From positions 1 through 23,771 of IMG/VR virus record IMGVR_UViG_3300012012_000677: DNA of 23,771 bases, one strand, 5' to 3'. The translations under genes and the position numbers were made by a program. This DNA is from a virus. The notes under the pieces were generated by a model, which was given only the letters and a program-made list of their open reading frames with translations, did not search any database and was not told the DNA's origin. Of the stretch, positions 1 through 23,771 are shown piece by piece (the stretch's first letter is position 1; the number at the start of each line of letters is the position of its first letter).

Positions 1-1
1 A

Positions 2-115
2 TATAGTAGTGTATGGTTATCTAAGGTTCTTCGTAAAAATGGTTATCCAATAAGTCCAAGTACTATACAACGACACGTTAACAAGGAGTGCTCCTGTGAA
101 CAACCTGCTCAATGA
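2..115 (+). CDS. C-terminal end of a helix-turn-helix protein (5' truncated by window edge)
   Basis: The frame starting at base 2 is open from the window edge to a TGA at 113-115, giving about 37 residues. It contains the segments WLSKVLRKNGYPIS and PSTIQRHVNKECSC. The spacing of hydrophobic residues, then Ser-x-Ser-Thr-Ile-x-x-His, resembles the recognition-helix end of a helix-turn-helix domain. It is followed by a Cys-x-Cys tail often seen in phage proteins that lie near terminase genes. It overlaps the GTG start of the next gene by 20 bases, which suggests translational coupling. It could be a small terminase subunit or a regulator; the visible part is too short to decide. The reading frame is convincing, the function is inference. 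Confidence 0.55.
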   Translation, partial: YSSVWLSKVLRKNGYPISPSTIQRHVNKECSCEQPAQ

Positions 116-449
116 TTTAAATCAACCACCTAAAAATACTAAAGTTCTTGGTAAGTTACTTGAGTTATTGGAACGAAAAAACATAGACATTGAAGATATT
201 GGAGACGTAAAACGTGTTTCTATATATCAGTCTCTAACTAAAAACGAAGATGGCGAGGCAGAAGTTCACGACCTTGCTGCAATTCAATTTTCTCCTGCTT
301 GGGAAAGTGGTCCTAAATGGCCTGTTGTTCAACAAGGACCAGCAATCAAACTAGTTCCTAAAAAACCAATTCTCAAAACTAAGAGTAAATATAAAAAATG
401 CGTAATAGTTCCAGACGCTCAAATTGGTTATTACAGGGGACGAGACTGA
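96..449 (+). CDS. Metallophosphoesterase, N-terminal part (motif I), ended by an in-frame TGA
   Basis: This 117-residue frame starts at GTG 96, with AAGGAG at 83-88 at ideal spacing. Residues 1-95 are a charged N-terminal region with no recognised fold. Residues 103-113 (VIVPDAQIGYY) match metal-binding motif I of calcineurin-like phosphoesterases, with D107 and Q109 in the D-x-H/Q pattern. Translation stops four codons later at TGA 447-449. The same frame stays open beyond the stop and carries motifs II to V, so this is the front of one enzyme of about 383 residues. On its own the fragment would hold only one metal ligand set. It may be a nonsense-broken gene, a leaky stop, or a sequencing error in an intact gene. 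Substrate unknown; phage members of the family act on nucleic acids or phosphoproteins. Confidence 0.75.
   Translation: MNNLLNDLNQPPKNTKVLGKLLELLERKNIDIEDIGDVKRVSIYQSLTKNEDGEAEVHDLAAIQFSPAWESGPKWPVVQQGPAIKLVPKKPILKTKSKYKKCVIVPDAQIGYYRGRD
447..449 (+). other. In-frame TGA inside the metallophosphoesterase reading frame
   Basis: The codons around the stop read GAC TGA CAA, followed by ten sense codons to the next ATG at 480. Reading through would give R-D-x-Q-L-E-P-T-H-D-E, which continues naturally from motif I into the region before motif II. A single G-to-T change from GGA (Gly) would create this stop. The base after TGA is C, a context generally associated with weaker termination. No ribosome binding site precedes ATG 480. 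Confidence 0.7.
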
Positions 450-479
450 CAACTTGAACCAACACATGATGAAAAAGCA

Positions 480-1247
480 ATGCAAATTGCAATTGAACTA
501 ATAAAAGAAGTAAAGCCACAAACAGTTGTATGCGTTGGTGACAACTTAGATTTTCCTGAACTAGGTAAGTATTTAACTACTCCTGCATATCAACAAACTA
601 CTCAAGCGGCTATTGACCGTGCGACTAAGTTTTGTGCAGAACTTCGTGACGCTGCACCATCGGCAAAGATTATATGGCTTGCTGGTAATCACGAAGAGCG
701 AATGCCAAAGTATCTACTTATGAATGCAACTGCAGCATATGGATTGAGAAAAGGAAACACTCCTGAATCTTGGCCAGTTTTAACGGTTCCATATCTTTGC
801 CGAATGGAAGATTTTAAAGTTGAATACCGACCAGGTTATCCAGCATCTGATTTTTGGATAAATGAAAAACTTCGTGTTATTCACGGAGACAGAGTTAAAT
901 CAGGTGGCTCTACTGCAAACGTATATTTAAATCAAGAAAAAACATCTGTGGTTTATGGACACATTCACCGAATTGAAACTGCGTTTAAGACTAGGGAGGA
1001 TTTTGATGGTCCTCGCACAATCATGGCAGCGTCTCCTGGTTGTCTTGCTAGGATTGATGGTGCGGTTCCATCTACTAGAGGCGGTGTAGACCTTGATGGA
1101 CGACCACTTGTTAGGTACGAAAACTGGCAGCAAGGAATGGCAGTTGTTACTTATGAAGATAAGGGTGACCACAAGTTTTCATATGAAGTTATGCCAATCT
1201 ATAACGGTTGGGCTATTTATCAAGATAAAGAATTTGTTGTTAAATAA
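480..1247 (+). CDS. Metallophosphoesterase, C-terminal catalytic part (motifs II-V)
   Basis: This 255-residue frame is in the same phase as the fragment before it. It shows motif II GDNLD (residues 20-24), motif III GNHE (69-72), an HGDR segment near residue 135 and the final GHIH (160-163). These are the canonical metal and phosphate ligands of the calcineurin-like superfamily. Motif I (D-x-Q) lies upstream of the TGA at 447-449. The ATG at 480 has no Shine-Dalgarno sequence and falls mid-domain, so it is probably an internal Met of a longer protein, not a real start. If only this part is made, the enzyme lacks a key metal ligand and is likely inactive. The gene ends two bases before the next start (1250). 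Family call confident; whether the product is functional is open. Confidence 0.75.
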   Translation: MQIAIELIKEVKPQTVVCVGDNLDFPELGKYLTTPAYQQTTQAAIDRATKFCAELRDAAPSAKIIWLAGNHEERMPKYLLMNATAAYGLRKGNTPESWPVLTVPYLCRMEDFKVEYRPGYPASDFWINEKLRVIHGDRVKSGGSTANVYLNQEKTSVVYGHIHRIETAFKTREDFDGPRTIMAASPGCLARIDGAVPSTRGGVDLDGRPLVRYENWQQGMAVVTYEDKGDHKFSYEVMPIYNGWAIYQDKEFVVK

Positions 1248-1249
1248 GC

Positions 1250-1879
1250 ATGACTACTATTATTGGAATTCAAGGAGATGGTTTTGCGGTTATTTGTGCA
1301 GATTCCCGTGTATCTACTTTTGGTGACAACTTTTCTCAAATAGGAACGCTTAGAGAAGGTTCTAGTAAAGTGTCTCAAAACGGAAAATACCTTATAGGTG
1401 CGGCTGGGGATGTTCGTGCAATTAACATTCTTCAGCATGTTTTTCAACCACCTACGCCTCCAATAAATGCTAATAAAAAAACATTAGACCAGTTTTTTAC
1501 CGTTAAGTTTATTCCAGCATTACGAGAGTGCTTTGAGACGCAAGGATACGCTGTACCTGAAAAAGAAGACAAAGAACACATCGCAGAACAAGGTTCATCA
1601 GTTATAGTTGCTGTTAATAGCAATATATATGTTGTTGAAAGCGATTATTCATGGTCCTCTGAATCTACTGGATTATATGCTTTGGGTTCAGGTTCTTCAT
1701 ATGCTTTAGGAGCATTGCAAGTATTAGTTCGTAACAAAAAAGTAAACAGTCAGTTAGCAAGAAACTATGCTCTTCGCGCTTTGGCTATCGCTTCAAAATA
1801 TGACCCCAACACTGGTTCTCCATATCATTCATTTGTACAGGGAGAAAAGGTAAGCGCTAAACGACGTAAAAAGGTATAA
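1250..1879 (+). CDS. HslV / 20S proteasome beta-like Ntn hydrolase
   Basis: This 209-residue protein begins Met-Thr-Thr-Ile-Ile, like E. coli HslV (Met-Thr-Thr-Ile-Val). Removal of Met would expose Thr2 as the N-terminal nucleophile with no propeptide. D18 falls at the position of Asp17 of the proteasome beta subunit. K40 is the best candidate for the catalytic Lys33, after a short insertion. The IGAAGD segment matches the conserved Ala-Gly turn, and GSG at 146-148 followed by SYALGAL matches the HslV Gly-Ser-Gly-x-x-Tyr-Ala segment. The basic C-terminal tail (AKRRKK) is extra; HslV is about 175 residues. No HslU-type ATPase partner is seen. Its place just before portal, scaffold and capsid genes, with no other head protease visible, suggests a role in head maturation, but that is inference. 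Fold call confident. Confidence 0.8.
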   Translation: MTTIIGIQGDGFAVICADSRVSTFGDNFSQIGTLREGSSKVSQNGKYLIGAAGDVRAINILQHVFQPPTPPINANKKTLDQFFTVKFIPALRECFETQGYAVPEKEDKEHIAEQGSSVIVAVNSNIYVVESDYSWSSESTGLYALGSGSSYALGALQVLVRNKKVNSQLARNYALRALAIASKYDPNTGSPYHSFVQGEKVSAKRRKKV

Positions 1880-1896
1880 TTAAACCACAACCAATC
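1878..1896 (+). repeat. Copy 1 of a duplicated leader motif upstream of a start codon
   Basis: The 19 bases AATTAAACCACAACCAATC start in the TAA stop of the protease gene and lead into AAGGAG and ATG 1910. Nearly the same string, with two single-base deletions, occurs at 4771-4787 in front of the capsid gene. It could be an mRNA leader or promoter-linked element. No clear -10/-35 pair is visible. Confidence 0.4.
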
Positions 1897-1909
1897 AAGG
1901 AGATTAAGT

Positions 1910-2223: not shown

Positions 2224-3906
2224 ATGGCAATTGACTTTTGGTCACCCTCTTATCGCGCTGCTGCTAGTGACTTAACAGTTGCTATTAGCCCTTTAGGGCT
2301 TGTAGAGTTAGCCGACGAAGAATTTGAAGTCCATGGTCCGCGTCTAAACAGGTACTCATCTGCTTGGGCGTGGTACTTAGGACACCATTGGTCATATCGC
2401 CGTGAGATGGGTGAATCTCAATTTTACATGAACTATGTCCGAACAATGTCGGACTATATTACAAACTTTTGTTTTGGTAAAGGGATTCAATTTAAAGTTC
2501 CAGAACAAAACAACGCTATCATTCCTCACCTTTTAGATGATGTGTGGAATACTCACAATAACAAACATAAAGTTTTGTGGGAAATGGGACAACTGGCTGG
2601 AGTTACAGGAGATTGTTTTGTAAAGGTAGCCTTTGAAGAACCTTTTGTAGACTCCGTTGGCGTTCCGCATGAAGGTCGTATTAGGGTTATACCACTTAAC
2701 CCAGCACATTGTTTTCCTGAGTATCATCCACATGACCGTGACCGCATTATTAGATTTAAACTTAAATATCGTTTTTGGGGAACTTCGGCTGAAGGAACTC
2801 GTCAAGTTTATACGTTTACGGAAATACTAACTGATGAAAATGTTCAACAGTTTATTAATGATGAGTTAATTGACGAATATCCAAATGCAATTGGAAGTGT
2901 TCCAATTGTGCATATTACTAACGTAAGTATTTCATCCTCTCCTTGGGGTCAGTCTGATATTTGGGATATTATTCCACTAAATCGTGAACTTAATGAAAAA
3001 ATGACTGAAGTATCAGACATCATTAACTACCACGCAGCACCCGTAACTATCATTACTGGGGCAAAAGCCAGTCAATTAGAACGAGGTCCTAAAAAGGTGT
3101 GGGCTGGTCTTCCAAAAGATGCGAACGTTTTTAACCTTGAATCTCGCGGTGAGATGTCTGGTGCTTTAGAATATATTCAGTTTATTAAAAGAACAATGCA
3201 TGAAATTACAGGCATTCCTGAAGCAGCATTAGGACAATTTCAACCAGTTTCAAACACTTCTGGCGTTGCTTTGGCTATTCAATATCAGCCTTTAATGAAC
3301 CGTTACGCAATGAAAAAGATACATTTTTCAAAAGGTCTTGAGCGAATTAACGAACTTGTCATTCGTACTGCGGCTATGTTCAAACCAGAAATGTTAATTT
3401 ATAACCCTCAAAAAGCGGCTAAACCAGAGAGGGATAACTTACTAGAACTTGACCCTCTTGACCCTGTTACCTACAAAACAACATGTCATTGGCCTGACCC
3501 ACTGCCCGTAGATGTTCTTATTAAACTCAATGAGGTTCAAGCAAAGATGTCGTTGGGCTTAGAGTCTAAGCGTGGCGCCTTGCGTACTTTGGGTGAAGAG
3601 TTCCCGAACGAAAAGATGGAAGAAATCTTTGAAGAACTCATGGATGATGCTATTGACCAAGGCGCTTTAACAATGCTTACATCTCAAATACAAGCCGCAA
3701 TTATGATGGCAACAGGAATGTTGCCTAACAATGAAGGTCCCGTTACAGCGTCAGCAGGAGGGGCTGACGTGTCATCGGCAGGAAATTCTCAAGGTTCTAT
3801 GCCTGGAACGGCTGTAAACCCTGTAGAATCAGACCTGATGAATCAATTGGTTAGTAAGGCTTATGGTGCTAGGTTCGCCCAGCGTCGTAATCCAGATGCA
3901 GAATAA
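2224..3906 (+). CDS. Portal protein
   Basis: A 560-residue protein that would form the dodecameric ring at the head vertex through which DNA is packaged and to which the neck attaches. The N-terminal part shows portal-type features: an aromatic/charged helix (WAWYLGHHWSYR), then NFCFGKGIQFKVP near residues 81-93, then LWEMGQLAGVTGDCFVKV around 120-137. The middle contains a long helix with ITGIPEAALGQF, typical of portal stem/clip regions. The C-terminal 60 residues are Gly/Ser/Ala-rich and probably disordered. Length is normal for a portal. The start has only a weak AAGAAG-like site in the end of the previous gene, so translation may be coupled. It is followed directly by scaffold and capsid genes. 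Confident from sequence pattern and position. Confidence 0.88.
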   Translation: MAIDFWSPSYRAAASDLTVAISPLGLVELADEEFEVHGPRLNRYSSAWAWYLGHHWSYRREMGESQFYMNYVRTMSDYITNFCFGKGIQFKVPEQNNAIIPHLLDDVWNTHNNKHKVLWEMGQLAGVTGDCFVKVAFEEPFVDSVGVPHEGRIRVIPLNPAHCFPEYHPHDRDRIIRFKLKYRFWGTSAEGTRQVYTFTEILTDENVQQFINDELIDEYPNAIGSVPIVHITNVSISSSPWGQSDIWDIIPLNRELNEKMTEVSDIINYHAAPVTIITGAKASQLERGPKKVWAGLPKDANVFNLESRGEMSGALEYIQFIKRTMHEITGIPEAALGQFQPVSNTSGVALAIQYQPLMNRYAMKKIHFSKGLERINELVIRTAAMFKPEMLIYNPQKAAKPERDNLLELDPLDPVTYKTTCHWPDPLPVDVLIKLNEVQAKMSLGLESKRGALRTLGEEFPNEKMEEIFEELMDDAIDQGALTMLTSQIQAAIMMATGMLPNNEGPVTASAGGADVSSAGNSQGSMPGTAVNPVESDLMNQLVSKAYGARFAQRRNPDAE

Positions 3907-4806: not shown

Positions 4807-5901
4807 ATGGCATATCCAGGTCCAGTAGGTGGTGCAGTCACAGGCGCAAATCTTGGTTCAATTACCACGACAGGCTACTCAAGTGATGCAACACTTTCAC
4901 CAGCAATTCAAGAGATTTGGTCAAAAGAGATTTTGTTCCAAGCAATGCCTGTTCTTCGTTTTGAACAGTTCGCAGTAAAGAAGACAGAACTTGGCGTAAT
5001 GCCTGGTTTGACAGTTAACTTTATGCGTTACACCAACCTTACAACTGACGACTACGCAGGCGCAGAATTGGTTGAAGGCGTTCGCATGGAACCAAGTGCT
5101 CTTTCGGCAAGTCAGATTCAAATCACCGTAAAGGAACAAGGCAAGTCAGTTGCTGTCACCGAGTTGTTGCTTAACGCAGCCTTTGATGACGTAATGGCAT
5201 CAGCCTCACGTCTCCTTGGTCGTCACATGGCACAATCCATGGACATTCAAGCACGTAACACGCTTTACAGCGCTGGTGTTCCATTTGCTGGAGGTGCTGC
5301 AGTTGCTCCAAGCGTAGTGTTTGGTCGCAACACCAATGGTTCAACACGTGGTTCAATTGCTCCTTACGAGTACTCATCGGCTGGGTCGGCTTCGGCTCCA
5401 GGTTACCTTTCACCTGCAACAGTTAAAGATGCAGTTGAAGTACTTGCTGGTCAAAACATCCCACGTCTTGGCGACACATACGTGTGCTTCGTTCACCCAT
5501 CACAAAGCCGTTCGCTTCGTGACTGGCCTGAATTTATTGAAGTCACTAAGTACGCTGCTCCAGGAAACTTCATGCTTGGTGAAATTGGTCGTATCTACGA
5601 CGTAGTATTCATTGAGACAACTCAAGTGCTTCAAGGTCAGGCAACAACAGATGTTGTTGACCTTAGCCCAGGAGTTGCAGGTAACCTAGACCCAATTAGC
5701 ACATCGTACAACGCAATGATGATTGGTGATAACGCCTTTGGTCAAGCGATTGCATTGCCAGTAGAACTGCGAGACGGTGGAGTCATTGACTTTGGTCGTG
5801 AGCATGGTCTTGCTTGGTACGCAATTTGGGGCTTTGGTGTAATTACACACGAGTCACGAGTGCTTATCAACACAAAGGGTGGCGCAATCGGCGCTTCCTG
5901 A
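4807..5901 (+). CDS. Major capsid protein (HK97 fold, N4-gp56-like)
   Basis: A 364-residue protein that would form the icosahedral shell. The pattern follows the N4-gp56-type capsid family: SPAIQEIWSKEILFQAMPVL near residues 27-46, then GLTVNFMRYTNL, a GAELVEGV loop, KEQGKSVAVTELLLNAAFDD, and SASRLLGRHMAQSMDIQAR. There is no long N-terminal delta domain, so cleavage of the capsid protein itself may not be needed. Asn and Tyr are encoded almost wholly by AAC and TAC, unlike the AAT/TAT-rich neighbours, which fits very high expression. AAAGGA lies upstream of the ATG, and a strong terminator-like hairpin follows the TGA stop. High confidence. Confidence 0.9.
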   Translation: MAYPGPVGGAVTGANLGSITTTGYSSDATLSPAIQEIWSKEILFQAMPVLRFEQFAVKKTELGVMPGLTVNFMRYTNLTTDDYAGAELVEGVRMEPSALSASQIQITVKEQGKSVAVTELLLNAAFDDVMASASRLLGRHMAQSMDIQARNTLYSAGVPFAGGAAVAPSVVFGRNTNGSTRGSIAPYEYSSAGSASAPGYLSPATVKDAVEVLAGQNIPRLGDTYVCFVHPSQSRSLRDWPEFIEVTKYAAPGNFMLGEIGRIYDVVFIETTQVLQGQATTDVVDLSPGVAGNLDPISTSYNAMMIGDNAFGQAIALPVELRDGGVIDFGREHGLAWYAIWGFGVITHESRVLINTKGGAIGAS

Positions 5902-9641: not shown

Positions 9642-11129
9642 ATGGCATTTCAAAGACCTGGCGTTCATGTATCAGAAGGCGCCTTTACAACAACATCCAA
9701 CTCTGGCACCGATACTGTTGCTGCTGGCTTCATTGCGACTGCACCACGTGGTCCAATTGTTCCAACAAAAGTAACGTCATGGACAGCGTATAAAGCGCTG
9801 TACGGCGACATTGAAGATGCGTACGACCTTCCTTATGCGGTATATCATTTTTTTGCAAACGGTGGTCGTAGTACATATGTTTCTCGTGTATATGATTCAT
9901 CTGCCGCTCTTTCTGCTTCAGTAGCCGTTGCAGGAACAGTAAACGGTGGGGGTTCGTCAACTGTGTTTACAGCACGTGCTGCAAACCCTGGTGCTTGGGG
10001 AAATAGCCTTACAGTGAGTGTTACTGCTGGATTGGTTACTGGCAATGAGCCAACATTTAATTTAATTGTTAAATTGAGTGGCACAGAAGTTGAGCGTTGG
10101 AACGAAGTAAGTCTTGATTTGAATTCAAATCGTTACTTAGGAACGGTAGTAAACACTTACTCTACCTACATCACTGTTGTATCTATTGCTACATACACAT
10201 CTGCGTTTACTGTTACTGCGGTATCTAACTCTGCTTTGGCAAGTGGTTCCGATGGGTCAACGCTAATTAACGGAGATTACGAAGACGCAATTGATGGATT
10301 TGACTCAGTTACAGAAGAGTTGCTTCTTAACGTTGTTGATAATACAACTGCTGCTATTGTTAACTACGCATTAGCATATGCTGAAACTCGTGGAGATTGT
10401 TTTGTAGTAATTGACCCTGCAACTGTTACTTCTGGAGCCGATGCAGTTTCTGCTATTTCTGGATATACCGCTTCTTCTTATGGTGCTGTATATTATCCAA
10501 AACTTAAAATGATTGACCCATCAAAAACAGGTGCTTCTGCAATTCGCGATACTGCACCTGGTGGGGCTATTCTTGGATTGTACTCACGAGTTGATTCAGA
10601 ACGAACAGTTGCAAAAGCACCTGCTGGTTTTAGTTATGACGTTCGCAATGCTTTTGGTCTTGTAATCTCGTTTACCGAAGCAGAACAAGGAACTATGTAT
10701 GATGCTCACGTAAACACTATGAAAGCAATTCCTGGTGCTGGAGTAATTATTAATGGTGCTCGTACTTTGAAGAAAACAGATATCACAAAGTACGTTCCAA
10801 CGCGCCGAAGCCTTAACTATGTTAAAGCCCAATCACGACGCCTTACAGAGTTTGCGGTATTTGAACCTAACAATGAGCGTCTGTGGACAAACATTCAAGT
10901 TCGTCTTTCTAAATTTCTTGCTGAGTTTTGGAGTGCAGGAGGTCTTAAAGGTCGTAATACAAGTGAAGCGTTTTATGTGTTGTGCGATTCAACAAACAAT
11001 ACAACAAACTCAATTGAAAATGGTGAAGTTCGTGTAGAGGTCGGGGTTGCATTGCAAACTCCCGCCGAATTTATTGTCATTGAAGTTAGCCAATTTGTTG
11101 GCGGCTCAAATCTAAACGAAACTGTTTAA
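9642..11129 (+). CDS. Contractile tail sheath protein
   Basis: A 495-residue protein that would assemble around the tail tube and contract to drive it through the cell envelope. The N-terminus (RPGVHVSE near residues 5-12, then VAAGFIATAPRGPIVPTKVT) is the standard start of phage sheath proteins. Residues 60-85 (LPYAVYHFFANGGRSTYVSR) are the typical A-V-x-x-F-F-x-N-G-G motif. The C-terminal part (INGARTLKKTDITKYVPTRR, then FAVFEPNNERLWTNIQ) carries the conserved sheath core. The central Ser/Thr/Val-rich part (about 85-230) is the variable outer domain. AAGGAG precedes ATG. Followed 10 bases later by the tube gene, as in most myoviruses. High confidence. Confidence 0.93.
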   Translation: MAFQRPGVHVSEGAFTTTSNSGTDTVAAGFIATAPRGPIVPTKVTSWTAYKALYGDIEDAYDLPYAVYHFFANGGRSTYVSRVYDSSAALSASVAVAGTVNGGGSSTVFTARAANPGAWGNSLTVSVTAGLVTGNEPTFNLIVKLSGTEVERWNEVSLDLNSNRYLGTVVNTYSTYITVVSIATYTSAFTVTAVSNSALASGSDGSTLINGDYEDAIDGFDSVTEELLLNVVDNTTAAIVNYALAYAETRGDCFVVIDPATVTSGADAVSAISGYTASSYGAVYYPKLKMIDPSKTGASAIRDTAPGGAILGLYSRVDSERTVAKAPAGFSYDVRNAFGLVISFTEAEQGTMYDAHVNTMKAIPGAGVIINGARTLKKTDITKYVPTRRSLNYVKAQSRRLTEFAVFEPNNERLWTNIQVRLSKFLAEFWSAGGLKGRNTSEAFYVLCDSTNNTTNSIENGEVRVEVGVALQTPAEFIVIEVSQFVGGSNLNETV

Positions 11130-11139: not shown

Positions 11140-11784
11140 ATGGCTATTTCACAACGTACTGACCCGCTTAGAAACTTTAAGTTTCAAATTCAAATTGTGG
11201 GCGGAACCGATTTGGCAAGTCACACTTCGTCAGGAACTGGAACAGGACTTGATGGTCTTGGTTTTGCAGAAATGTCTGGTTTAAGCGTAACTAACGAATT
11301 GATTGCTTATCGTGAGGGTGGTATGAACACTCATCCACACAAGATGGTAGGACAATCGGATTTCCCACCAGTTTCATTTAGTCGTGGTGTGTTTTCTAAT
11401 CAAGCACAGATGTGGAAATGGCAAACATTTATCCACTCGTGGCAACAAGGAACAGCCGCTACAGGAAGCACTGGTTTGTTAAAATCAGGTGGTAGTAACG
11501 ACTATCGTTGTGACATTGTTGTTCGTGTATACGACCACCCATATACTCGCAATGATGGTGTTGGTGGTTCGTATCAAGCAACTGACCTTCCAGATGGTTC
11601 AACTAAACCAGGTAAGGTTCAATTAGCATTTAAATTGTTTAACTGTTGGCCTGGAGTTTTTGCAATGAACGGTCTTAACGCTGGTGATAACGGTATCCTC
11701 ATTCAACAAATGACGGTCCACCATGAAGGCTTCTATGTTGCATTTACTGAAAATGAAATCAACTCAATTGGAACAACTCGTTAA
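11140..11784 (+). CDS. Tail tube protein (T4 gp19-like)
   Basis: A 214-residue protein forming the hollow inner tube. The N-terminus (RTDPLRNFKFQIQI) and the following LGFAEMSGLSV match the phage tail-tube family, in which an N-F-x-F-x-V/I strand precedes a G-F-x-E-x-S-G-L loop. Further matches are YREGGMNTHPHKMVGQ and a C-terminal strand region with VQLAFKLFNCWPGVF. GGAG precedes ATG by a few bases and the sheath stop lies 10 bases upstream. Length is a little above the common 150-170 residues because of an extra loop region around 110-150. High confidence. Confidence 0.9.
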   Translation: MAISQRTDPLRNFKFQIQIVGGTDLASHTSSGTGTGLDGLGFAEMSGLSVTNELIAYREGGMNTHPHKMVGQSDFPPVSFSRGVFSNQAQMWKWQTFIHSWQQGTAATGSTGLLKSGGSNDYRCDIVVRVYDHPYTRNDGVGGSYQATDLPDGSTKPGKVQLAFKLFNCWPGVFAMNGLNAGDNGILIQQMTVHHEGFYVAFTENEINSIGTTR

Positions 11785-12767: not shown

Positions 12768-15536
12768 ATGGAAGAACCAAATCTTGGTGGAGGCTTAGGC
12801 GGCAGTGCTGCTGAGGGCAATGCCGCAAGTTCAATGGGTAATTCTGTTGTTAACTCACGCCTTAGCGTTGACCTTAAAATGTTGGAAGGTCTTAACAAAG
12901 AACTTAACACCTTAAACGAAAATACTAAAAAGATTAAATCTAATTTTAAAGATTTAATTAGTAACACTAAAACTTTAACCGCAGAGTTAAACAAAGCCGC
13001 TACTGCAATGGGCAAGGTCAGTGGTAAGTCTGGTTCTGGTTACATGGACATGAGCAAAGGTATGCCTGATGCTGCGGCTGCTGGTCGCCAACAGCAACTG
13101 GCTGACGTTGAACGCATCTTAGGAGCGCTTGGTAAAGGTGGTGGGCTTCCTGGAGGCGGTGGAGGAGGAGGCGGTGGCGGAAAGATTCTTGGTGGTTTAA
13201 AGGCTTTTGGAAACAACCCTTACGTTCAAGCGGCTTCACAATTTGGACAAGCAGCAATAGGCGCAATTGATGACCGTGTTGACCGTAACAAGGGTTACGC
13301 ACTCCCAGCAGACAAATTAAGCGTACAACTGCAACAGCAGTATGGCATGAGCCAAATGGACGTAATGAATGATTTGCGTGGACCTCTGCGTAGTCGTCGT
13401 TTAGGAATGGGTGGAATTAACGAACTACTTTCAATGCAATCGCGAACAGGTATCAATGCAGCCAATCAAGCAAGTTCTGTTGAGGGCATGCGAACTCTTA
13501 TGGGTTACGGTTACAGTGCAGGAGATGCAACTAACTACATTGAAAGTATGGGTCAAGCAGACACCGTAAACAGAATGTTTATGATGACTGGAACAAGTCT
13601 TTATGGTATTGGTGGTCAACAAAAATCAGCACAACAAGTAAACCAAGATTTAATTGGAAGACTTGGTTTAAACAATCGTGAAATTATTAATGCTGGTCGT
13701 CAAGATGGTTCTATGGTTCGTCAACGTTTGCAAATGTCTGGACTTGACCAAGGTGCTCAAGACTTATTACTTCAATACGCAGAATCAAACGTTAGTTTTA
13801 CTGAAAAAGGTGGCAAAGGCTTTTACGACCCTTCTAAAAAATCTGACCGTGAAAGAATGGGTATTGAAGGAAACTATGCCACACAGCAAGAAGAAACTAC
13901 ACGAACAGAAGTAAACCGTGAAGAGCAGATGTATAAGCGTCAAGCGGATAATTACGCTCAAATGGAAAAGAATTTACAAAACGTAAACAAAGCATTAGGT
14001 GCATTTGAGGACAAATTATCGGGCATTACTGGGGCAAGAACAAGCACTCGTGGATTTGGTCAACTGTTAAGCCCAGCACTTGGAATTGCTGGAGCAATTG
14101 TTGGTGGCATTGCAACTGGTAACCCTCTGGGAGCAATGGCTGGTTATTCAATAGGTTCAGGAATAGGTACTGCTGTTGGAGACGCTACTGGAGGAGGAGC
14201 AGCAAATCCTGGGCGTATTGCTGCGGAAAACCCTACCAAAAAACCAAACAACAGTGCTGGTCTTTCTCAACTAAAGCCAATTTTACGTGAACCTCTTGCA
14301 AAACTTATGGCAGACCGTCCTGGAATTTCTATTGGTCAAAGTTACCGTAGTCCAGAAGCCCAGAAAAAGATGTTCTTGGAACGCTATTACCGAACAGATG
14401 AAGAAACTAATACATACTATGACGGTTCATATTGGATGAAAAAACCAGGTGTTGCAATGGCAGCACCTCCAGGATTGTCATATCACGAAATTGGTTTGGC
14501 GGCTGACCTTGTATTTTCTAATCCAACCGACATTCAATGGTTGCAAGCAAACGCCAGCAAATATGGCCTTGATGAATTTTCACGACACGGAGAACCGTGG
14601 CACGTGCAATCAAAAGCCTACCCAGCAAGCCGTAGACAATACGAAGAAAGTGGGGCATCATACGGAACAGAAACTGAGCCTGAATATAAATATGTTGCAG
14701 ACACTACTGGTGTAATAACTGAAACAGGTCCAATGGGACAAACTGGTATGGGAATGGATACAGACGCAACAATTAAACAACAATTGAGCATGTCTGAGTC
14801 AGTGGCTTCGTTTTCTTCAATGGGAGTTGGTGGAACTATCGGTGGACGTTCTAAACAAAGAACATCAAAAGGTGGCAGGGACAGAGGAGGTTCAGAAAAA
14901 ACAAAAATAGATTCTGCTCCTGGTGCTTTTGACCCGTACGAAATGGCTCGCATTCTTGAACGAAGAAAATTTAAAAAAGAAGATATTTGGAAAATGATTG
15001 CTATATCTCATCGTGAATCTAGATGGAACCCAAATGCCTACAATGGAAATCGCGCAACAGGAGACGATTCATATGGTTTGTTTCAAATCAATATGCTTGG
15101 GGACATGGGTCCAAAACGCGCTAAGGATTTTGGGATTACAGATTACAAACAATTGCTTGACCCAATAACAAACATAAAGGCAGCGCGTATTATGTACGGC
15201 GGTGGGAACTTGTCACCGTGGAATAAAAATGGAAACCCATTAGGTAATATCCCTAATTCAACAATTAACGCAAGTAAAGAAATTGCTGGAAGTTTTGGTT
15301 ATCCAACAGGTGACCCATCAGATAAAGGGTATACCCCTCAAAGACAAGGAAACAATTCTTCATCTGGTTCCACCAACATTAAAACTGGGGAAACTACAAA
15401 CAACACTTTTAATGTTAACCCTACGATAAACCTTACTAGCACTGGTTCTGTTCCTATGGACGCTGCTAAATTGGCAAAAGAAGTAACTAAACTTATTGAC
15501 CGCGAATTAAGAATGAATATGGTAAGGAGTTCGTAA
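12768..15536 (+). CDS. Tape-measure protein with M15 peptidase and lytic transglycosylase domains
   Basis: A 922-residue protein preceded by TGGAGG. Residues 30-85 form a coiled coil, followed by a run of Gly near 130-140, helical central regions, and a hydrophobic Gly/Ala-rich stretch around 437-472 that could cross or disturb a membrane. Residues about 500-630 are an M15/VanY-type zinc peptidase: SYRSPEAQ, the S-x-H-x-x-G-x-A-x-D motif (S571, H573, D580) and E-P-W-H (E609, H612). Residues about 720-835 are a lysozyme-like transglycosylase: SHRESRWNP with E750 as the likely acid, then DSYGLFQIN. The protein would set tail length and cut peptide and glycan bonds of peptidoglycan at entry. It follows the chaperone genes. 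Domain calls are strong; the tape-measure role rests on position and coiled coil. Confidence 0.85.
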   Translation: MEEPNLGGGLGGSAAEGNAASSMGNSVVNSRLSVDLKMLEGLNKELNTLNENTKKIKSNFKDLISNTKTLTAELNKAATAMGKVSGKSGSGYMDMSKGMPDAAAAGRQQQLADVERILGALGKGGGLPGGGGGGGGGGKILGGLKAFGNNPYVQAASQFGQAAIGAIDDRVDRNKGYALPADKLSVQLQQQYGMSQMDVMNDLRGPLRSRRLGMGGINELLSMQSRTGINAANQASSVEGMRTLMGYGYSAGDATNYIESMGQADTVNRMFMMTGTSLYGIGGQQKSAQQVNQDLIGRLGLNNREIINAGRQDGSMVRQRLQMSGLDQGAQDLLLQYAESNVSFTEKGGKGFYDPSKKSDRERMGIEGNYATQQEETTRTEVNREEQMYKRQADNYAQMEKNLQNVNKALGAFEDKLSGITGARTSTRGFGQLLSPALGIAGAIVGGIATGNPLGAMAGYSIGSGIGTAVGDATGGGAANPGRIAAENPTKKPNNSAGLSQLKPILREPLAKLMADRPGISIGQSYRSPEAQKKMFLERYYRTDEETNTYYDGSYWMKKPGVAMAAPPGLSYHEIGLAADLVFSNPTDIQWLQANASKYGLDEFSRHGEPWHVQSKAYPASRRQYEESGASYGTETEPEYKYVADTTGVITETGPMGQTGMGMDTDATIKQQLSMSESVASFSSMGVGGTIGGRSKQRTSKGGRDRGGSEKTKIDSAPGAFDPYEMARILERRKFKKEDIWKMIAISHRESRWNPNAYNGNRATGDDSYGLFQINMLGDMGPKRAKDFGITDYKQLLDPITNIKAARIMYGGGNLSPWNKNGNPLGNIPNSTINASKEIAGSFGYPTGDPSDKGYTPQRQGNNSSSGSTNIKTGETTNNTFNVNPTINLTSTGSVPMDAAKLAKEVTKLIDRELRMNMVRSS

Positions 15537-17340: not shown

Positions 17341-17600
17341 TTAACTCTAAATCTTCTCGTTATTCTTCTTTATTTTACAATGATAAAAACAAAGAAGCAA
17401 GAACCATAGCAGAACGTGTTATTACCAAATCTCAGCCATACTTTACACACGTAACTGAATCAAACGAATCGTTTGCTTCTTTAGCAACAAAGTATTTAAA
17501 CAACGAAAAACTATATTGGTATATTGCTGACCAAAATCCGCAAGTTCGTTTTCCTGATTTAATTCCTGTTGGAACTATTATTCGTATACCTTTGGCATGA
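17337..17600 (+). CDS. LysM / gp53-like baseplate protein
   Basis: An 87-residue protein starting at GTG 17337 inside a GTGA overlap. Residues 33-87 (HVTESNESFASLATKYLNNE, then LYWYIADQNPQ and IPVGTIIRIPL) form one LysM-type fold: a beta strand, two helices with the W-x-x-I-A-D/E-x-N-P pattern, and a final P-x-G-x-x-I-x-I-P strand. In contractile tails such proteins stabilise the hub-wedge junction (T4 gp53-like role) and do not bind the cell wall. It ends in an ATGA overlap with the hub gene, so the three genes are translated as a block. Confident on the LysM fold, good on the role. Confidence 0.78.
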   Translation: MINSKSSRYSSLFYNDKNKEARTIAERVITKSQPYFTHVTESNESFASLATKYLNNEKLYWYIADQNPQVRFPDLIPVGTIIRIPLA

Positions 17601-18769
17601 TTACCACTAACTTATCACCTCTTGGCATTAATTGGAATATTGCGATTGATGGAGTTCCGTTTAACAAACAAACGGTTCAACGTGTTTTAACTTCATTTGT
17701 TGAAAACCAACATGACTACATGGTTGTAGAATTAGTTGGAGTTCCTTCTTCGTATGTATCTACATATGTAGACCGTCCTATTACAGCATATGTAAGGATT
17801 AACGGAGGCAAATCGTTTACGTTTTATGGTTATGTAACTCAGATTGAAGGCACTTCGGTTACAAATGAAGGAACAGTAAACAACAGTCCTTTTCAGATTA
17901 TTAAACTTATTTGCCTTGGCTCGTCACACTTGCTTCGCAGTAATAACACATTGGTGTGGGAAAATGTTACGTTAGAAAACATTGTCTCTGATATTGCAAA
18001 TGATTTTAGATTGGGCTATTCAATGCCTGTGGACAATTACGTTTTTAAACGAATTGTACAATCAGAAGAATCGTTGTGGAAACTACTTGTAAAAGCGTGC
18101 GACCAATTAGGTTATGTAATAACTCTTACTAACTCTCACATACATATTTGGGACAAAAACAAATCTTTAGCGCGTCAACCGTCATACACTATTTTGCGCG
18201 GAATAAAAGTTAAGAGAGAAAACTACAACCCTCTTCCAGGAGACATTGTTAACATAGAATCAACATTAGGAACTGCTGACGTTTCACAACAAGCAGGTGA
18301 CAAAACAATTACATACGTTGATGAACGTGGTGTGTTTGTAACTGTTGACAGTTCTCAATTAAACGGATTAAACAGTTTTGGAACTCCTCCAGAAAGCAGG
18401 TTCTACAACAAGTTGGCAGTCAGTGTTGATTCTTTTGAAAAAGCATCTCGTTACATTGAATCTAAAATTAAAAAAGCATATCCATATATGGCAGACGCCT
18501 TAGTATATGGAGACCCTTCTATTGTTCCAGGTGGAGTTGTAAAAATTGAAGGTTACGGAGGAGACTTTGATGGATACTGGTACGTCAATTCGGTAACTCA
18601 CACATTGTCAACTGACACTTTAACATCATTTTTAAAATTAGAAAAAGATGGAACATACAACATTCTTCCAAAGTTTCCAATTGTTCAGCGTTACCAAGAG
18701 CCACCTTTGCCAACATTAATCAAAGATAAATGGGTAATGAAAAAAGAGTATGTAAATGTATACAACTAA
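17597..18769 (+). CDS. Baseplate hub protein (gp27 / gpD-like)
   Basis: A 390-residue protein of the hub family (T4 gp27, P2 gpD, VgrG N-terminal part), which forms the trimeric adaptor between spike and tube. It has beta-rich N-terminal strands (WNIAIDGVPF; DYMVVELVG; FYGYVTQIE), then LICLGSSHLL, and NIVSDIANDF with RIVQSEESLWKLLVKACDQL around residues 154-173. That last segment is the classic helix followed by LGYVITLTNSHIHIWD. The C-terminal part (GDPSIVPGGVVKIEGYGGDF, then WYVNSVTHTLS) matches late-control-type proteins. It begins in an ATGA overlap and overlaps the next gene by 14 bases. High confidence on family. Confidence 0.82.
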   Translation: MITTNLSPLGINWNIAIDGVPFNKQTVQRVLTSFVENQHDYMVVELVGVPSSYVSTYVDRPITAYVRINGGKSFTFYGYVTQIEGTSVTNEGTVNNSPFQIIKLICLGSSHLLRSNNTLVWENVTLENIVSDIANDFRLGYSMPVDNYVFKRIVQSEESLWKLLVKACDQLGYVITLTNSHIHIWDKNKSLARQPSYTILRGIKVKRENYNPLPGDIVNIESTLGTADVSQQAGDKTITYVDERGVFVTVDSSQLNGLNSFGTPPESRFYNKLAVSVDSFEKASRYIESKIKKAYPYMADALVYGDPSIVPGGVVKIEGYGGDFDGYWYVNSVTHTLSTDTLTSFLKLEKDGTYNILPKFPIVQRYQEPPLPTLIKDKWVMKKEYVNVYN

Positions 18770-19082: not shown

Positions 19083-19477
19083 AGTCTATTAGAATACCTT
19101 TTAGTTTTGAAGAAGGCAGCGTATCTAGTACAAATAATATAGATACTATTGTTAGTCAAGAAATAGTTAATTACTTTATGACAATTGATGGAGAAAGGGT
19201 TATGAACTCATCATATGGAGGTGGTTTGCCTAGATTGTCATTTGAAATTAATGACCCTTTAGTTTTGGCTGATTATAAACTAGATGTTATTACTGAGGCT
19301 AATTCAAACCTATCTTTTGGTAAAGTGTTAGACCTTTTAGTATTAGACAATGCTAATAACACGTTTTATGAAGACAATGTGGCTACGGTGCTGATTCGTT
19401 ATGCTGTATCACCAAGAACCATATCTACTGTAAAATTAGTAGTAACAAACACGTTTAATGAAGAAAGCGACATCTAA
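19079..19477 (+). CDS. Baseplate wedge protein (gp25 / gpW-like)
   Basis: A 132-residue protein of the gp25/gpW family, which nucleates sheath attachment on the baseplate. Segments are IRIPFSFEEGSV, then IDTIVSQEIVNYFMTIDGER followed by an N-S-x-Y-G-G-G-L-P stretch near residues 44-52. This corresponds to the family pattern of a short helix, an R-x-x-N-P/S-x-x-G-x-x-L loop and beta strands ending in VLIRYAV. Size is typical (120-140). It begins in an ATGA overlap and ends in a TAATG overlap, so wedge genes are tightly coupled. Confident. Confidence 0.82.
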   Translation: MKSIRIPFSFEEGSVSSTNNIDTIVSQEIVNYFMTIDGERVMNSSYGGGLPRLSFEINDPLVLADYKLDVITEANSNLSFGKVLDLLVLDNANNTFYEDNVATVLIRYAVSPRTISTVKLVVTNTFNEESDI

Positions 19478-20925
19478 TGACAACTATTGATTACTCTAAT
19501 CGCGATTACGACTCTATTCGCGCTGACTTACTATCTCGTGCAACAGAAATAGTTCCCGAATGGACTGCAAGAAACTCGTCTGATTTTGGAGTTCTGTTCG
19601 TTGACCTTTGGTCATACTTTGCTGACGTATTACATTATTACATTGACCGCGCTGCTGGTGAAGCCTTTATTAATACAGCAACACAACGAGAATCTTTATT
19701 GGCTCTTGCCAGTTTGTTTGATTACAACCCACAACTTCAAACATCTTCAACTGCTACAGTAACAGTAGTTGGTACAAATATCCCTGCAGGACAAACTGTA
19801 ACAATTAACAGTGGGACTACGTTTGTTGCTCCCGCAACTTCAGAACGTCCTATTATTTATTTTACATCAACACAAAGTGCTTCTGCCTCCGCTTCTGCAA
19901 ATGCTGTTATACCAGTTGTTGAAGGGTTACAAATTAGTGACGAAACTGTTGGAACTTCAAACGGTTCAGCAAATCAACGATTTTCTTTGTTTTACAATGG
20001 AGTAATTGGTAATAGTGTAGAAGTGTTTGTAAAAGAAGGAGTAGTAGTTGATGGTGTTCCTTCTAACGTAGAGTATCAATTTGTTAATAAGTTGTTAGAT
20101 TCTACGGCAAATGACAAAGTATTCACATTACTAGCAACGGCATCTAACGAAATTGAAATTGTTTTTGGAAATGGTATTAATGGAAAGGTTCCAAACACTG
20201 GTCAAAGTGTTGTGGTAAATTACCGCAAAGGTGTTGGTTCTCGTGGAAACATTTCAGCAAACTCAATTACTCAAATTCAAAACTCTCCAAGTGTGTACAT
20301 TTCTGAAATTTTGTCTAGTGCTGCTACTGGAGGAGCAAACGTTGAATCTATTGAATCATTAAGAAACAACATTCCAAACTCATTTGCAACACAAGACCGA
20401 GCAGTATCCTTGGACGATTATAAAGCACTTGTTTTACAAGTTGCTGGAGTTGCTAAAGGAACTGCTGCGTATTCAAATGGAGCAGTTACTGTTTACGCTG
20501 CCCCATTTACTGAAGATTATTTAACTTATGCAACTTCTACATTATCAGTAGATAATAATTTACAAACTAACATTATTGAGTATTATGAACCTCGTCAAAT
20601 GGTTGGGGCAAGCGTTTCTGCAGCAAGTGCGATTAACCTAACTGCGGTAAATATTACTGCAACTGTAAATGTGTTATCTGGATACATTGCAAGCAAAGTT
20701 GCTGAATCGGTTGAGTCTGCATTAGATGTGTTGTTTGAATTTGAAAATGTTTTTTTTAATCAAACATTGTCAAAAGGTCAAATTTATAGAACTATCTTAG
20801 ATGTTCCTGGTGTTGATTACGTAACTATTTCGTTACCTAGCACTGAAACTGTAACATCTGGTGCATATGGATTATTAAAAAAAGGCACGTATACAATTTC
20901 AACTGTTGGTGGAGTCACTGGTTAA
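19477..20925 (+). CDS. Baseplate wedge protein J (gpJ / gp6-like)
   Basis: A 482-residue protein of the baseplate J family. The N-terminal helices are characteristic: DYDSIRADLLSRA, then SDFGVLFVDLWSYFADVLHY and ATQRESLLALASLFDY (residues 8-85). A beta-rich middle follows, with FGNGINGKVP near 230-240 (F-G-D/N-G-x-x-G-x-x-P is a family hallmark) and YRKGVGSRGNISANSI. The C-terminal half has TQDRAVSLDDYKALVLQVAG, a conserved family motif, and a domain ending near DVPGVDYVTI. It would form the wedge ring that opens during contraction. It abuts the next gene directly. High confidence. Confidence 0.9.
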   Translation: MTTIDYSNRDYDSIRADLLSRATEIVPEWTARNSSDFGVLFVDLWSYFADVLHYYIDRAAGEAFINTATQRESLLALASLFDYNPQLQTSSTATVTVVGTNIPAGQTVTINSGTTFVAPATSERPIIYFTSTQSASASASANAVIPVVEGLQISDETVGTSNGSANQRFSLFYNGVIGNSVEVFVKEGVVVDGVPSNVEYQFVNKLLDSTANDKVFTLLATASNEIEIVFGNGINGKVPNTGQSVVVNYRKGVGSRGNISANSITQIQNSPSVYISEILSSAATGGANVESIESLRNNIPNSFATQDRAVSLDDYKALVLQVAGVAKGTAAYSNGAVTVYAAPFTEDYLTYATSTLSVDNNLQTNIIEYYEPRQMVGASVSAASAINLTAVNITATVNVLSGYIASKVAESVESALDVLFEFENVFFNQTLSKGQIYRTILDVPGVDYVTISLPSTETVTSGAYGLLKKGTYTISTVGGVTG

Positions 20926-22890
20926 ATGGCATTAGTATCATTTCGCTTACGACGTACGGATGACGTTGGTTCATATGTTCGCGAAGAAGGCCGTTTAGAT
21001 TCAGCACTTCGTAGTGATTCATATGTAACTCCAACAGACAGTTTTGGTTTTTCGTCATTTAGTGCAACTGTTATGAATGTTGAAGAACTAACAATTGTAG
21101 ACACAGCACGACCAGGCGGACAATACATTGCGTATGAGTATGATGTTTTAACAGAGTGGACATTAACAGAAGAATTAGTATCTGCTCCAACAATAGTTTC
21201 CCCAACTGAAATCCACATAGTGGTTAATCAATATGGAGAACCTTTAACGGTTGAAGATGGCACCACCGTTTTTACATGTAACAGTGAATCTTTTGTAAAC
21301 ACTTTTCGTCATGTCAGTTCTTTGTATAAACCTGGCACTTGGTTGTACTATGGATATTTTATTAAATATGCTGATGCGTCAACGTCATGGTTTGAACGTG
21401 TTGCAAATATAACTGTTCAACTGCCACAGTATTATCAATCTGTTGAAGATTTGTGGCAAAGAATTCCTGAGTACTACAGAGCAGCAGATTATGGTGCAGG
21501 AAATGGTCACCTTAAAAAGTACTTATCGTTGTTTGGATGGGAACTTGACAAAACACGAAGTTTAATTGACAGTTTAATAACTATTAACGACCCTTTAACT
21601 TCTCCAACAAATACTCTGGACTCTATTGCTAATCAATTAGGGTTGCCATTAACTTCGTTGGACATTGGAACAGCAAGACTTAGAAGCGTTCTTTTAAACA
21701 TTTTTAATCTTCGCCAACGTAAAGGAACAATTGGCGGAACAACTTCTTTTATTTCCGCAATGTCTGGTTGTCAATCTCGTTTTGATTCTGATACAAATAC
21801 TTTTTATGTTTATTCACAACGAGTTAATCTTTTATCAGACCCTAAGTTTAGGCAACAAGATGTTTCTTTTTATTTAGGAACACCGTCTGTAATTGATAGA
21901 ACACCGTTTACACTTCGTAGTGAAACAGGTGGTTCTGCACTACGAAACCCAGATAGTAATGATGACGCAATTAGAAACTATAATTCAAATCCTTTATCAG
22001 TAGGAGAGTTAGCAGAATACACAACGACACTTACTACCAATACTGCGGCTTCTGTAGGTTGGGGTGTGTATACATACGGAAGCGCTTTTTTAGCATCTGC
22101 ATCTGTTCCCGTTGTTAATACTATTGTTTATGATGGAGAAGAAACAGCAGGTGCATCCGTATCTGTTGTTTACTCTAACGGAGATGGTATTAAAATTGAA
22201 ATTCCAAATGACGCAACTGGTTCTCAAGTAGTTGTTGTTTATGGGCGCAAACCTTTTTACTACCGAAATGGTAATACTTACTACACTTCGTTTAACTGTA
22301 ATCTTGCAGGAGCGTCATTTGTTAACTTTCGTTTTATAACTAACGATAACATTAATAGTTACGTAGAAATTGACCCACCCGATTCTGTTGGTGAAGACCT
22401 GTTCTATGATTCATGGAACACAGAAAGTGCCGCAAATCAAGACATCTTTTTGTATGGAAACACAGCATATTACAACGCCAGCGCTCCTGGGTTGGCTACC
22501 GTTGGTCGCTTTAGTTTACAACATCCAGAAACTCCAGATATTGATAATGTTGAGCAAGCCGTGGTTCCAGCATTGGTATTTTTTGCGAACCCTGGAGATT
22601 CAATAATTGTGTCTAAATGGTTGGTTGAACCAAACGCCGTAGGTCGTTATTTTGATGGAGATGATATTTATGGCGGTTTTATTAAACAAGCAAATCAACC
22701 AACTGTTGTAGGGGTTGCTGACTACAGGTGGGGACCAGATGGCGGAGATGATAATGAGAACTTTTCTTACTACACTTTAGATTACGCACGTATTACAAAT
22801 GCTGTAGAACGCATTGTGGAAAACACACTGATACCTGTTAATATGATTGGCGATTACACAATTGAATGGAACACTATCCCAGGAGACTAA
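20926..22890 (+). CDS. Tail protein I-like (gpI) baseplate protein with large extra domains
   Basis: A 654-residue protein. A gpI-like core lies at about residues 165-280: VEDLWQRIPEYYRAAD, then LKKYLSLFGWELDKTRSLID, ANQLGLPLTSLDIG and RSVLLNIFNLRQRKGTIGG. This is the usual pattern of the P2 gpI family that joins wedges and fibres. Typical gpI proteins are about 200 residues. Here an N-terminal beta domain (1-165, with FN3-like strands) and a long C-terminal beta-rich part (290-654, with repeated Tyr/Asn/Asp loops) are added. The C-terminal part may bind fibres or carbohydrate. It starts one base after the gpJ stop, with no separate ribosome binding site evident. Core call good; extra domains unassigned. 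Confidence 0.75.
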   Translation: MALVSFRLRRTDDVGSYVREEGRLDSALRSDSYVTPTDSFGFSSFSATVMNVEELTIVDTARPGGQYIAYEYDVLTEWTLTEELVSAPTIVSPTEIHIVVNQYGEPLTVEDGTTVFTCNSESFVNTFRHVSSLYKPGTWLYYGYFIKYADASTSWFERVANITVQLPQYYQSVEDLWQRIPEYYRAADYGAGNGHLKKYLSLFGWELDKTRSLIDSLITINDPLTSPTNTLDSIANQLGLPLTSLDIGTARLRSVLLNIFNLRQRKGTIGGTTSFISAMSGCQSRFDSDTNTFYVYSQRVNLLSDPKFRQQDVSFYLGTPSVIDRTPFTLRSETGGSALRNPDSNDDAIRNYNSNPLSVGELAEYTTTLTTNTAASVGWGVYTYGSAFLASASVPVVNTIVYDGEETAGASVSVVYSNGDGIKIEIPNDATGSQVVVVYGRKPFYYRNGNTYYTSFNCNLAGASFVNFRFITNDNINSYVEIDPPDSVGEDLFYDSWNTESAANQDIFLYGNTAYYNASAPGLATVGRFSLQHPETPDIDNVEQAVVPALVFFANPGDSIIVSKWLVEPNAVGRYFDGDDIYGGFIKQANQPTVVGVADYRWGPDGGDDNENFSYYTLDYARITNAVERIVENTLIPVNMIGDYTIEWNTIPGD

Positions 22891-23144
22891 TGGATTTATT
22901 ATTCGCAGCACTAGCAGTTTACAAAGTTGTACAAATTTTAGATTTATTCTTAACAAAAGAACCAATGCCTTGGGTTAAAGTACTTACTACTTTGGTCATG
23001 TCATATGTAGCAGTTCTTGTTTTATGGACTGAAGTTATTTGGTTGCATGGATTAGTGGTTGCAACTATTGCTGGAATAGTGCATAGTCTAATTCGCATGA
23101 TTACACTCATGGGAGACATGGCAAGAGCAAAGTCGTTGCGTTAA
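22890..23144 (+). CDS. Small membrane protein, holin-like
   Basis: The preferred start is ATG 22890, which overlaps the previous stop as TAATG and has AGGAGA at 22881-22886. This gives an 84-residue protein. A longer version from ATG 22866 lies inside the previous gene with no site of its own. Three hydrophobic segments are seen: about residues 3-21 (LLFAALAVYKVVQILDLFL), 30-46 (VLTTLVMSYVAVLVLW) and 51-70 (WLHGLVVATIAGIVHSLIRM), with basic residues at the end (ARAKSLR). It could be a holin or another small inner-membrane protein; no endolysin is next to it in the window. Membrane character is clear, function unproven. Confidence 0.65.
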   Translation: MDLLFAALAVYKVVQILDLFLTKEPMPWVKVLTTLVMSYVAVLVLWTEVIWLHGLVVATIAGIVHSLIRMITLMGDMARAKSLR

Positions 23145-23155
23145 AGGAGAACAAC

Positions 23156-23771
23156 ATGAATCATTTTGTAATACTTGGAAAAGGTAACACATCTGAAAAC
23201 ATCATAGAAGATTGTTTATTTGATTTACCAAAAGACAGCACATTTTATACTTATGCATACCGAACAAATCTAGAAGGTGTATGCCGAGTTTATGATTGGT
23301 TGCTAGACAACAAAGCACAGTATGTTGCTTATCACAACAATGAATCTCCACCAATTTTAACTAACTCTGCAACTAAGGTAGTTGAGGCATCCGTTGAAGA
23401 AATGATAGATGTAGCGCGTAACTTAAAGGCCACAGTGCTTTATCTATGGGACGACAAAAATGAAGCAGAGTCAGAAAAGCAAGTGACTAGTTTGATTGAC
23501 AGTGGTATTCGCGTTCTTGATTTAACTCAAGGTCTTACTCCCTTTTTAATTGTAGACAACAAAAAAGAAGTAAACACTACGGTTGACTCTCTTAAACCAA
23601 TCACTCGCGAAGAGTATGAAGAAATGCCATTGGCTTCTTTAAAACAACAAGCAGCAGCACACGGTGTAGAAAAAAGTAAATCTACATCAAAAGAAAACAT
23701 AATTAACGAATTGACTAGTCCTGCACCAAAAGAAAAATATGGGACTAAACCAACAGCAACCGTAGTAATTG
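23156..23771 (+). CDS. Unknown protein with C-terminal SAP/HeH-like motif (3' truncated by window end)
   Basis: ATG 23156 follows AAAGGAGA at good spacing and opens a frame of at least 205 residues that runs off the window. The N-terminal 135 residues alternate strands and helices (FVILGKGNTSENIIEDCLF, then VYDWLLDNKAQYVAYHN, ATVLYLWDDKN and GIRVLDLTQG), suggesting a Rossmann-like alpha/beta fold. Residues about 153-185 (YEEMPLASLKQQAAAHGV, then KENIINEL) resemble SAP/HeH or Rho-N-type helix-extension-helix motifs, which bind nucleic acid in other proteins. A Pro/Lys-rich linker follows. I do not recognise the protein; DNA binding is a guess from the small motif. Confidence 0.6.
   Translation, partial: MNHFVILGKGNTSENIIEDCLFDLPKDSTFYTYAYRTNLEGVCRVYDWLLDNKAQYVAYHNNESPPILTNSATKVVEASVEEMIDVARNLKATVLYLWDDKNEAESEKQVTSLIDSGIRVLDLTQGLTPFLIVDNKKEVNTTVDSLKPITREEYEEMPLASLKQQAAAHGVEKSKSTSKENIINELTSPAPKEKYGTKPTATVVI

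Follow-up and report, generated by a model that had tools for sequence, protein, structure and literature searches.

Why should a stretch of phage DNA lack several of the shortest palindromes altogether? The question is raised by a 23,771-base virus fragment, the whole of IMG/VR record IMGVR_UViG_3300012012_000677 (hereafter, the window), in which the words AGCT, GATC, TCGA and CCGG do not occur. It is highly likely that their absence results from selection by several Type II restriction systems of the hosts, which probably belong to Actinobacteria. Such systems would favour phages lacking their sites, and a phage genome with no sites would not be cut and would need neither a methyltransferase of its own nor a modified base.

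Absence of Four Palindromes in the Window

Each of the four words has 0 copies in the window, exactly as an initial annotation of this DNA had claimed. The maximal-order Markov expectations are 70.2 for AGCT, 46.9 for GATC, 38.6 for TCGA and 18.9 for CCGG. The base composition, with a guanine-cytosine (GC) content of 39%, gives 84.3 for each of the first three words and 35.7 for CCGG, in agreement with the annotation's estimates of about 80 and 30–40. These four are the sole tetranucleotides with a zero count, so no non-palindromic word is equally absent, and CCCC (6 copies) is the sole other one with fewer than eight copies. The remaining 12 four-base palindromes are all found, as had also been predicted, the lowest ratio being that of GGCC (16 copies versus 29 expected).

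The coding sequences were shuffled 500 times among synonymous codons (25 reading frames, 22,740 coding bases), with the proteins and the codon usage kept. The shuffled means were 93 for AGCT, 59 for GATC, 50 for TCGA and 17.5 for CCGG, with minima of 70, 42, 33 and 7, and zero was never reached for any of the four. In the same comparison, GTAC (55 copies, shuffled minimum 68) and GGCC (14, minimum 16) lie below every shuffle yet far from zero; CGCG, GCGC and CTAG are close to their shuffled means, CATG is above, and ACGT and TGCA are below. The absence of the four words is therefore genuine and lies in the DNA, not in the proteins. The choice of Asp codons follows the rule to which the annotation had drawn attention: before a codon starting with C, all 75 Asp codons are GAC, including both Asp-Pro pairs near positions 3449–3465, which read gaccct, whereas before a codon starting with T, GAT accounts for 75 of 97.

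Two degenerate six-base words are also scarce in the window, YGGCCR with 1 copy versus 9.4 expected and GRGCYC with 0 versus 4.3, the latter a weak deficit. The words selected against in the window lineage would then be AGCT, GATC, TCGA and CCGG, nearly also YGGCCR and perhaps GRGCYC.

Missing Words in Related Phages

Relatives were taken as the best 80 IMG/VR loci each by the head protein and by the portal protein of the window (genes listed below), the contigs being partly shared. Among these, 18 long relatives of 49–99 kb were analysed, two of them over their first 60,000 bases. AGCT has no copies in 14 of the 18 and a single copy versus 208 expected in G009; it is retained in G004 (112 versus 196 expected), G005 (312 versus 376) and G006 (342 versus 413). 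Zero counts were also found for TCGA in 11 of the 18 genomes (with 2 copies in G015), for CGCG in 9 (two further genomes have a single copy), for CCGG in 9, and for GATC and ACGT in 4 each, the expectations for these six words being 68–357 each. In the G018 contig, all six words are missing together. Every one of the sixteen four-base palindromes is present in G005 and G006, whose six-base zeros number one (CCGCGG) and two (GCCGGC, CGGCCG), respectively.

A wider set comprised 121 loci of at least 12 kb, some overlapping on one contig and including a contig (L234) from a metagenome-assembled genome (MAG). The avoidance of AGCT is all-or-none in this set, with 110 loci at zero and 11 at 0.6–1.0 of the expected count. 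Zero counts for the other words were found in 96 loci for TCGA, 87 for CGCG, 81 for CCGG, 40 for GATC and 13 for ACGT.

A mutational or compositional bias, or an artefact of assembly or library preparation, can scarcely be the cause. Several of the avoided words contain CpG, which would suit a bias; however, AGCT and GATC do not contain it, and GCGC occurs at expectation in the same window. Composition is excluded by the codon shuffles and the Markov models, the contigs come from many IMG datasets, and the complete sets of four-base palindromes in G005 and G006 also speak against such an origin.

Form of the Missing Words

An exhaustive scan of symmetric words, degenerate ones included, was made in the 18 relatives, with words containing a missing shorter word discounted. 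Further zero counts were obtained for CCWGG in 4 genomes, CGWCG in 2, GCWGC in 1, GRGCYC in 14, YGGCCR in 9, CTGCAG in 9, AGGCCT in 4 and CTTAAG in 3, and other six-base symmetric words were at zero in 1–3 genomes each. The initial annotation had thus understated the avoidance, which extends in the relatives to five-base and degenerate six-base sites. The missing four-base, five-base and main six-base words have forms that we take to be those of Type II recognition sites, the enzymes fitting them presumably being AluI, TaqI, HpaII, MboI, EcoRII, Hpy99I, BanII, EaeI, PstI and similar ones.

Some candidate words were rejected. The asymmetric GAGCCC, CCAGG, CGACG and GCAGC were resolved into GRGCYC, CCWGG, CGWCG and GCWGC. 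GGCC was considered as a seventh avoided tetranucleotide; its flanks in the long relatives indicate that YGGCCR, GGGCCC and AGGCCT explain much of the depletion.

Not one of the clade's 19,080 eligible cells (word by locus) lacked its non-palindromic tetranucleotide, and the absence is nearly restricted to Type II-like symmetric words. The annotation had read the pattern as selection against Type II sites. Its specificity for symmetric words and its differences between lineages bear this out; the part of the claim that concerns enzymes of these specificities in the host is still putative.

Loci found by an arbitrary 15-mer served as the background (62 loci of at least 8 kb). At least four palindromes were missing in 2 of them and in 97 of 159 clade loci of at least 8 kb, the latter being kin to each other and in part overlapping, so that they are not independent events. 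At least one palindrome was missing in 22 of the 62 background loci, which indicates that avoidance in itself is widespread among viral contigs from the environment. Non-palindromic tetranucleotides were missing in 1 of 7,239 background cells.

The extent of avoidance in the clade is not unique. The low-GC background locus L502 (10.5 kb, contig IMGVR_UViG_3300030099_004531), which encodes a DNA primase-like protein, lacks eight four-base palindromes each expected at least 12 times, and also CCGG, CGCG and GCGC at lower expectation. Locus L512 (7.6 kb, contig IMGVR_UViG_3300021963_000006), with primase- and helicase-like genes, lacks AATT, AGCT, CATG, CTAG, GCGC, GTAC and TGCA.

Gene Content of the Window and Turnover of the Word Sets

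The larger reading frames of the window lie on the + strand and form a myovirus structural module (portal, HslV-like peptidase, head, sheath, tube, tape measure and baseplate). A PHROG scan gave a match for 9 of 10 proteins scanned:

480..1247, +, metallo-phosphoesterase (PHROG 20266, E-value (E) 6e-67)
1250..1879, +, HslV-family (proteasome-like) peptidase, upstream of the portal gene (PHROG 1040, E 5e-25)
2224..3906, +, portal protein, with the two Asp-Pro pairs encoded as GAC CCT (PHROG 64, E 2e-43)
4807..5901, +, major head protein, the probe for relatives (PHROG 1357, E 2e-61)
9642..11129, +, tail sheath protein of a contractile (myovirus) tail (PHROG 17610 and 23)
11140..11784, +, tail tube protein (PHROG 4542, E 2e-18)
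12768..15536, +, tail tape measure protein (PHROG 16823, E 1e-17)
17597..18769, +, tail protein or baseplate hub (PHROG 52, 196)
19477..20925, +, baseplate wedge subunit (PHROG 219, E 8e-42)

The head, portal and sheath proteins were used for a tree of 84 rows, 4 of 88 records having been dropped for too few genes. The tree was built by a quick search, 47 of its 74 inner branches are starred, and the root was not inferred. The fewest changes required on it are 3 for AGCT, 7 for TCGA, 4 for CGCG, 6 for CCGG, 4 for GATC and 3 for ACGT; the missing-word sets are thus lineage-specific and change repeatedly on the tree. CGCG is carried by the window's own five-row clade and missing in the seven-row sister clade with G014; it is intermediate in L014 and carried by L122, which indicates that it was lost or regained nearby. 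An adjoining clade of seven rows keeps few GATC (10 versus 125 expected in G015, 2 versus 42 in L012) and may be in transition. Of the sites left in G015 (L203–L205), both TCGA and 8 of the 10 GATC are found in the initial 15 kb of the 60 kb analysed, as if this stretch had been imported recently.

Possible Hosts

Sixteen of the 18 long relatives encode WhiB-like proteins, 30 in all, and none were found in the other two, the fragments G015 and G018; these proteins occur in the relatives and not within the window itself. Both copies in G014 match the Pfam family Whib (E 4e-14 and 2e-15). A report on Planktophila phages describes whiB as exclusive to Actinobacteria (PMC10202952), and because of this statement and the WhiB genes of the relatives, the hosts are presumed to be actinobacterial. 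The selecting agents would be host endonucleases acting in Actinobacteria, with putative identities given by the missing words.

A scan with a conserved WhiB peptide found at least 120 loci, and the following counts apply to loci of at least 4 kb among the matches listed. AGCT has no copies in 46 of 73 loci with a GC fraction below 0.6 and in 1 of 37 with 0.6 or above. It is likewise at zero in 18 of the 35 loci with GC below 0.6 that share less than 10% with the clade. The 46 AGCT-free loci passing an expectation filter (45 with GC below 0.6, plus L415) form three groups linked by tblastx, with 22, 18 and 6 members. Clade proteins cover 0–18% of the locus in the group of 18 and 3–13% in the group of 6; both groups carry similar WhiB genes and the smaller one also the PDDEXK gene discussed below. 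The loss of AGCT in WhiB phages of so little shared sequence favours selection imposed by the host and not by the phage. Different sets are missing in the other WhiB phages L359, L418, L360, L397 and L368, for example AGCT, ATAT, CGCG and TGCA, with one copy of AATT or none, or else AGCT, CATG, CCGG and GATC.

No account of AGCT avoidance in freshwater actinophages was found among the matches listed in a search of titles and abstract openings of the open-access literature. Possibly, though we lean slightly against it, the low- and middle-GC Actinobacteria that host these WhiB phages have a large and so far undescribed repertoire of site-specific nucleases, Type II or methylation-independent, that changes fast. 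An AGCT-cutting system would be very common in this repertoire, which could be read for each lineage from the words missing in the phages.

Evidence Against Host Restriction and Alternative Explanations

The explanation by host Type II restriction has to be weighed against a number of observations, which are gathered in this section. Counts intermediate between absence and normality (above zero and below 0.6 of expectation) were found over the 121 loci for TCGA in 5 cases, CGCG in 15, CCGG in 16, GATC in 15 and ACGT in 30. Asymmetric words are also at zero, CGTCTC in 3 of the 18 relatives and GCGGAC, GACGCC and CCGCTC in one each. Aligned codons show how the words are lost and so speak for avoidance: none of the 23 CGCG words of the window is kept in the CGCG avoider G014, where 18 of them show a synonymous difference (a single base in 17 cases) and the other 5 an altered amino acid. 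This support is weak alone, as the CGCG-carrying L083 keeps just 3 of 11. Codon divergence is wide in any case, with 2,657 of 7,134 codons identical. Finally, the host enzymes are putative.

The accessory gene content brings in another explanation, namely that the phages encode site-specific endonucleases of their own for degrading host DNA and protect themselves by eliminating the sites from their genomes rather than by methylation. Chlorella viruses encode site-specific endonucleases that degrade host DNA. The DNA methyltransferase families PF00145, PF01555 and PF02086 had matches in 0 of 30 related phage records each, so self-protection would have to proceed by loss of sites. Accessory proteins were scanned for families in two genomes, G016 (73 of 155 open reading frames (ORFs)) and G018 (77 of 109 ORFs, 45 of them scanned twice), three of the scans listing 25 families out of 30, 71 and 80, respectively; many accessory ORFs have no family. 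The matches listed for G016 include ArdA, DUF932, glycosyltransferases and a generic Methyltransf_11 domain (E 1.6e-7). Those listed for G018 include glycosyltransferases, a PDDEXK_15/Mrr_cat nuclease and a Cas4-like match, with weak PADLOC matches to MTase_II (E 0.007) and mREase_IV (E 0.009). Two gene clusters fit this explanation without contradiction. A KTSC-domain cluster follows the avoidance of AGCT, being present in 14 of 15 avoiders (G009 counted; the one missing is the partial G019) and in 0 of the 3 others, G004–G006. A DUF932 cluster follows the avoidance of CGCG, with 9 of 11 avoiders (missing in the partial G015 and G018) and 0 of 7 others. Neither KTSC nor DUF932 is, to our knowledge, a site-specific nuclease, and in our judgement both fits reflect shared descent.

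Phage-encoded endonucleases nevertheless seem a very unlikely cause. Of the 18 long relatives, 16 carry a member of the cluster that contains the PDDEXK_15/Mrr_cat gene (L206:6951-7328), among them G004, G005 and G006, where AGCT is retained, so this gene does not track the avoidance. No Type II endonuclease family was found among the 25 listed, of 30 Pfam families matched by 73 G016 accessory proteins, or among all 24 Pfam families of 45 G018 accessory proteins. Members of the KTSC cluster had no match in any of the 120 listed WhiB-pattern loci, which are fragments, and AGCT is lost also in the WhiB phages of little shared sequence. The searches thus gave no convincing phage-encoded methyltransferase or endonuclease as the cause. 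ARAGORN detected no transfer RNA (tRNA) genes in G001, G014 and G016.

Selection by host Type II systems also meets a difficulty in published drafts from Lake Biwa: Hiraoka et al. 2019 (PMC6329791) report no methylated motifs and no methyltransferases in seven of seven actinobacterial drafts, three of which are hgcI (acI), with a completeness of 17–77%. This would agree with a methylation-independent or undetected host nuclease or site-binding factor attacking symmetric words, the hosts being protected by lack of the words or by another mark. Such a factor is very improbable in our estimation: the words match ordinary Type II forms, degenerate ones included, the drafts are incomplete, and the same source states a low sensitivity of single-molecule real-time (SMRT) sequencing for 5-methylcytosine (m5C) (PMC6329791). 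The incompleteness and the weak m5C signal may explain the missing methyltransferases; these could also reflect an unusual defence, or other hosts. Methylation of AGCT as N4-methylcytosine (m4C) in a thaumarchaeon and methylation of GCWGC in Chloroflexi are described in that paper (PMC6329791).

A relative of the head protein was found in just one genome bin, a MAG labelled Chloroflexi; on the contig concerned (L234, PCAM01000041.1), AGCT has 0 copies versus 43 expected. PF00145 was not found in this MAG, and neither the MAG nor 39 other genomes of its order had WhiB (0 of 40). Stretches of seven contigs of the MAG contain AGCT at a near-normal level (214 versus 244). Given the lack of WhiB in these 40 genomes and the near-normal AGCT, this bin was set aside as a lead to the host, and the phage contig is judged to be probably misbinned.

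Significance and Comparison with Known Systems

For most environmental phages the host is unknown, and a clade that lists Type II specificities lineage by lineage offers a testable fingerprint of host and defence. Because the absence concerns specifically symmetric words and varies between lineages, the set of missing words can serve to fingerprint the restriction systems that a lineage encounters. Near relatives lack different words, so that changes in restriction pressure can be followed over short distances. Should the hosts be lake Actinobacteria, the conflict with the methyltransferases undetected in the published drafts (PMC6329791) makes a direct test possible. The acI Actinobacteria are reported to be without CRISPR spacers by which phages could be assigned to them (PMC10202952).

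Site avoidance itself is known, with a reported trend towards non-temperate phages; the present case is an extreme, clade-wide and modular form of it. Rusinov et al. 2018 (PMC6286503) describe a non-random loss of orthodox Type II sites in prokaryotic viruses, with complete or almost complete elimination in about one tenth of viral genomes. The loss of Type II sites is the same here. The present case differs in that most of the clade avoids sites, in lineage-specific and changing sets, and one 70-kb contig, G018, lacks six four-base words together with CGWCG, YGGCCR, GRGCYC and CTGCAG. The hosts were known there, whereas the host enzymes considered here are putative.

No near DNA match to the window was found in the phage collection. 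The best-ranked isolates by the sheath protein are Streptomyces phages of the BRock group (33–35% identity), and the first of them is BRock itself (Borockvirus; 34.9% identity over 94%), with portal, head and sheath genes in a similar order. BRock differs, over the 41.9 kb analysed, in retaining AGCT (183 versus 225 expected), TCGA (123 versus 122), CCGG (153 versus 154) and GATC (188 versus 198), and also in possessing tRNA genes. Over the same length, it lacks CTGCAG (0 versus 12.6) and AGGCCT (0 versus 8.2). The Planktophila phages E7 and F5 (PMC10202952) differ in having genomes of 39 kb. They resemble the clade in being freshwater actinophages with WhiB, and E7 encodes a homologue of ArdA, a match to which is also present in G016.

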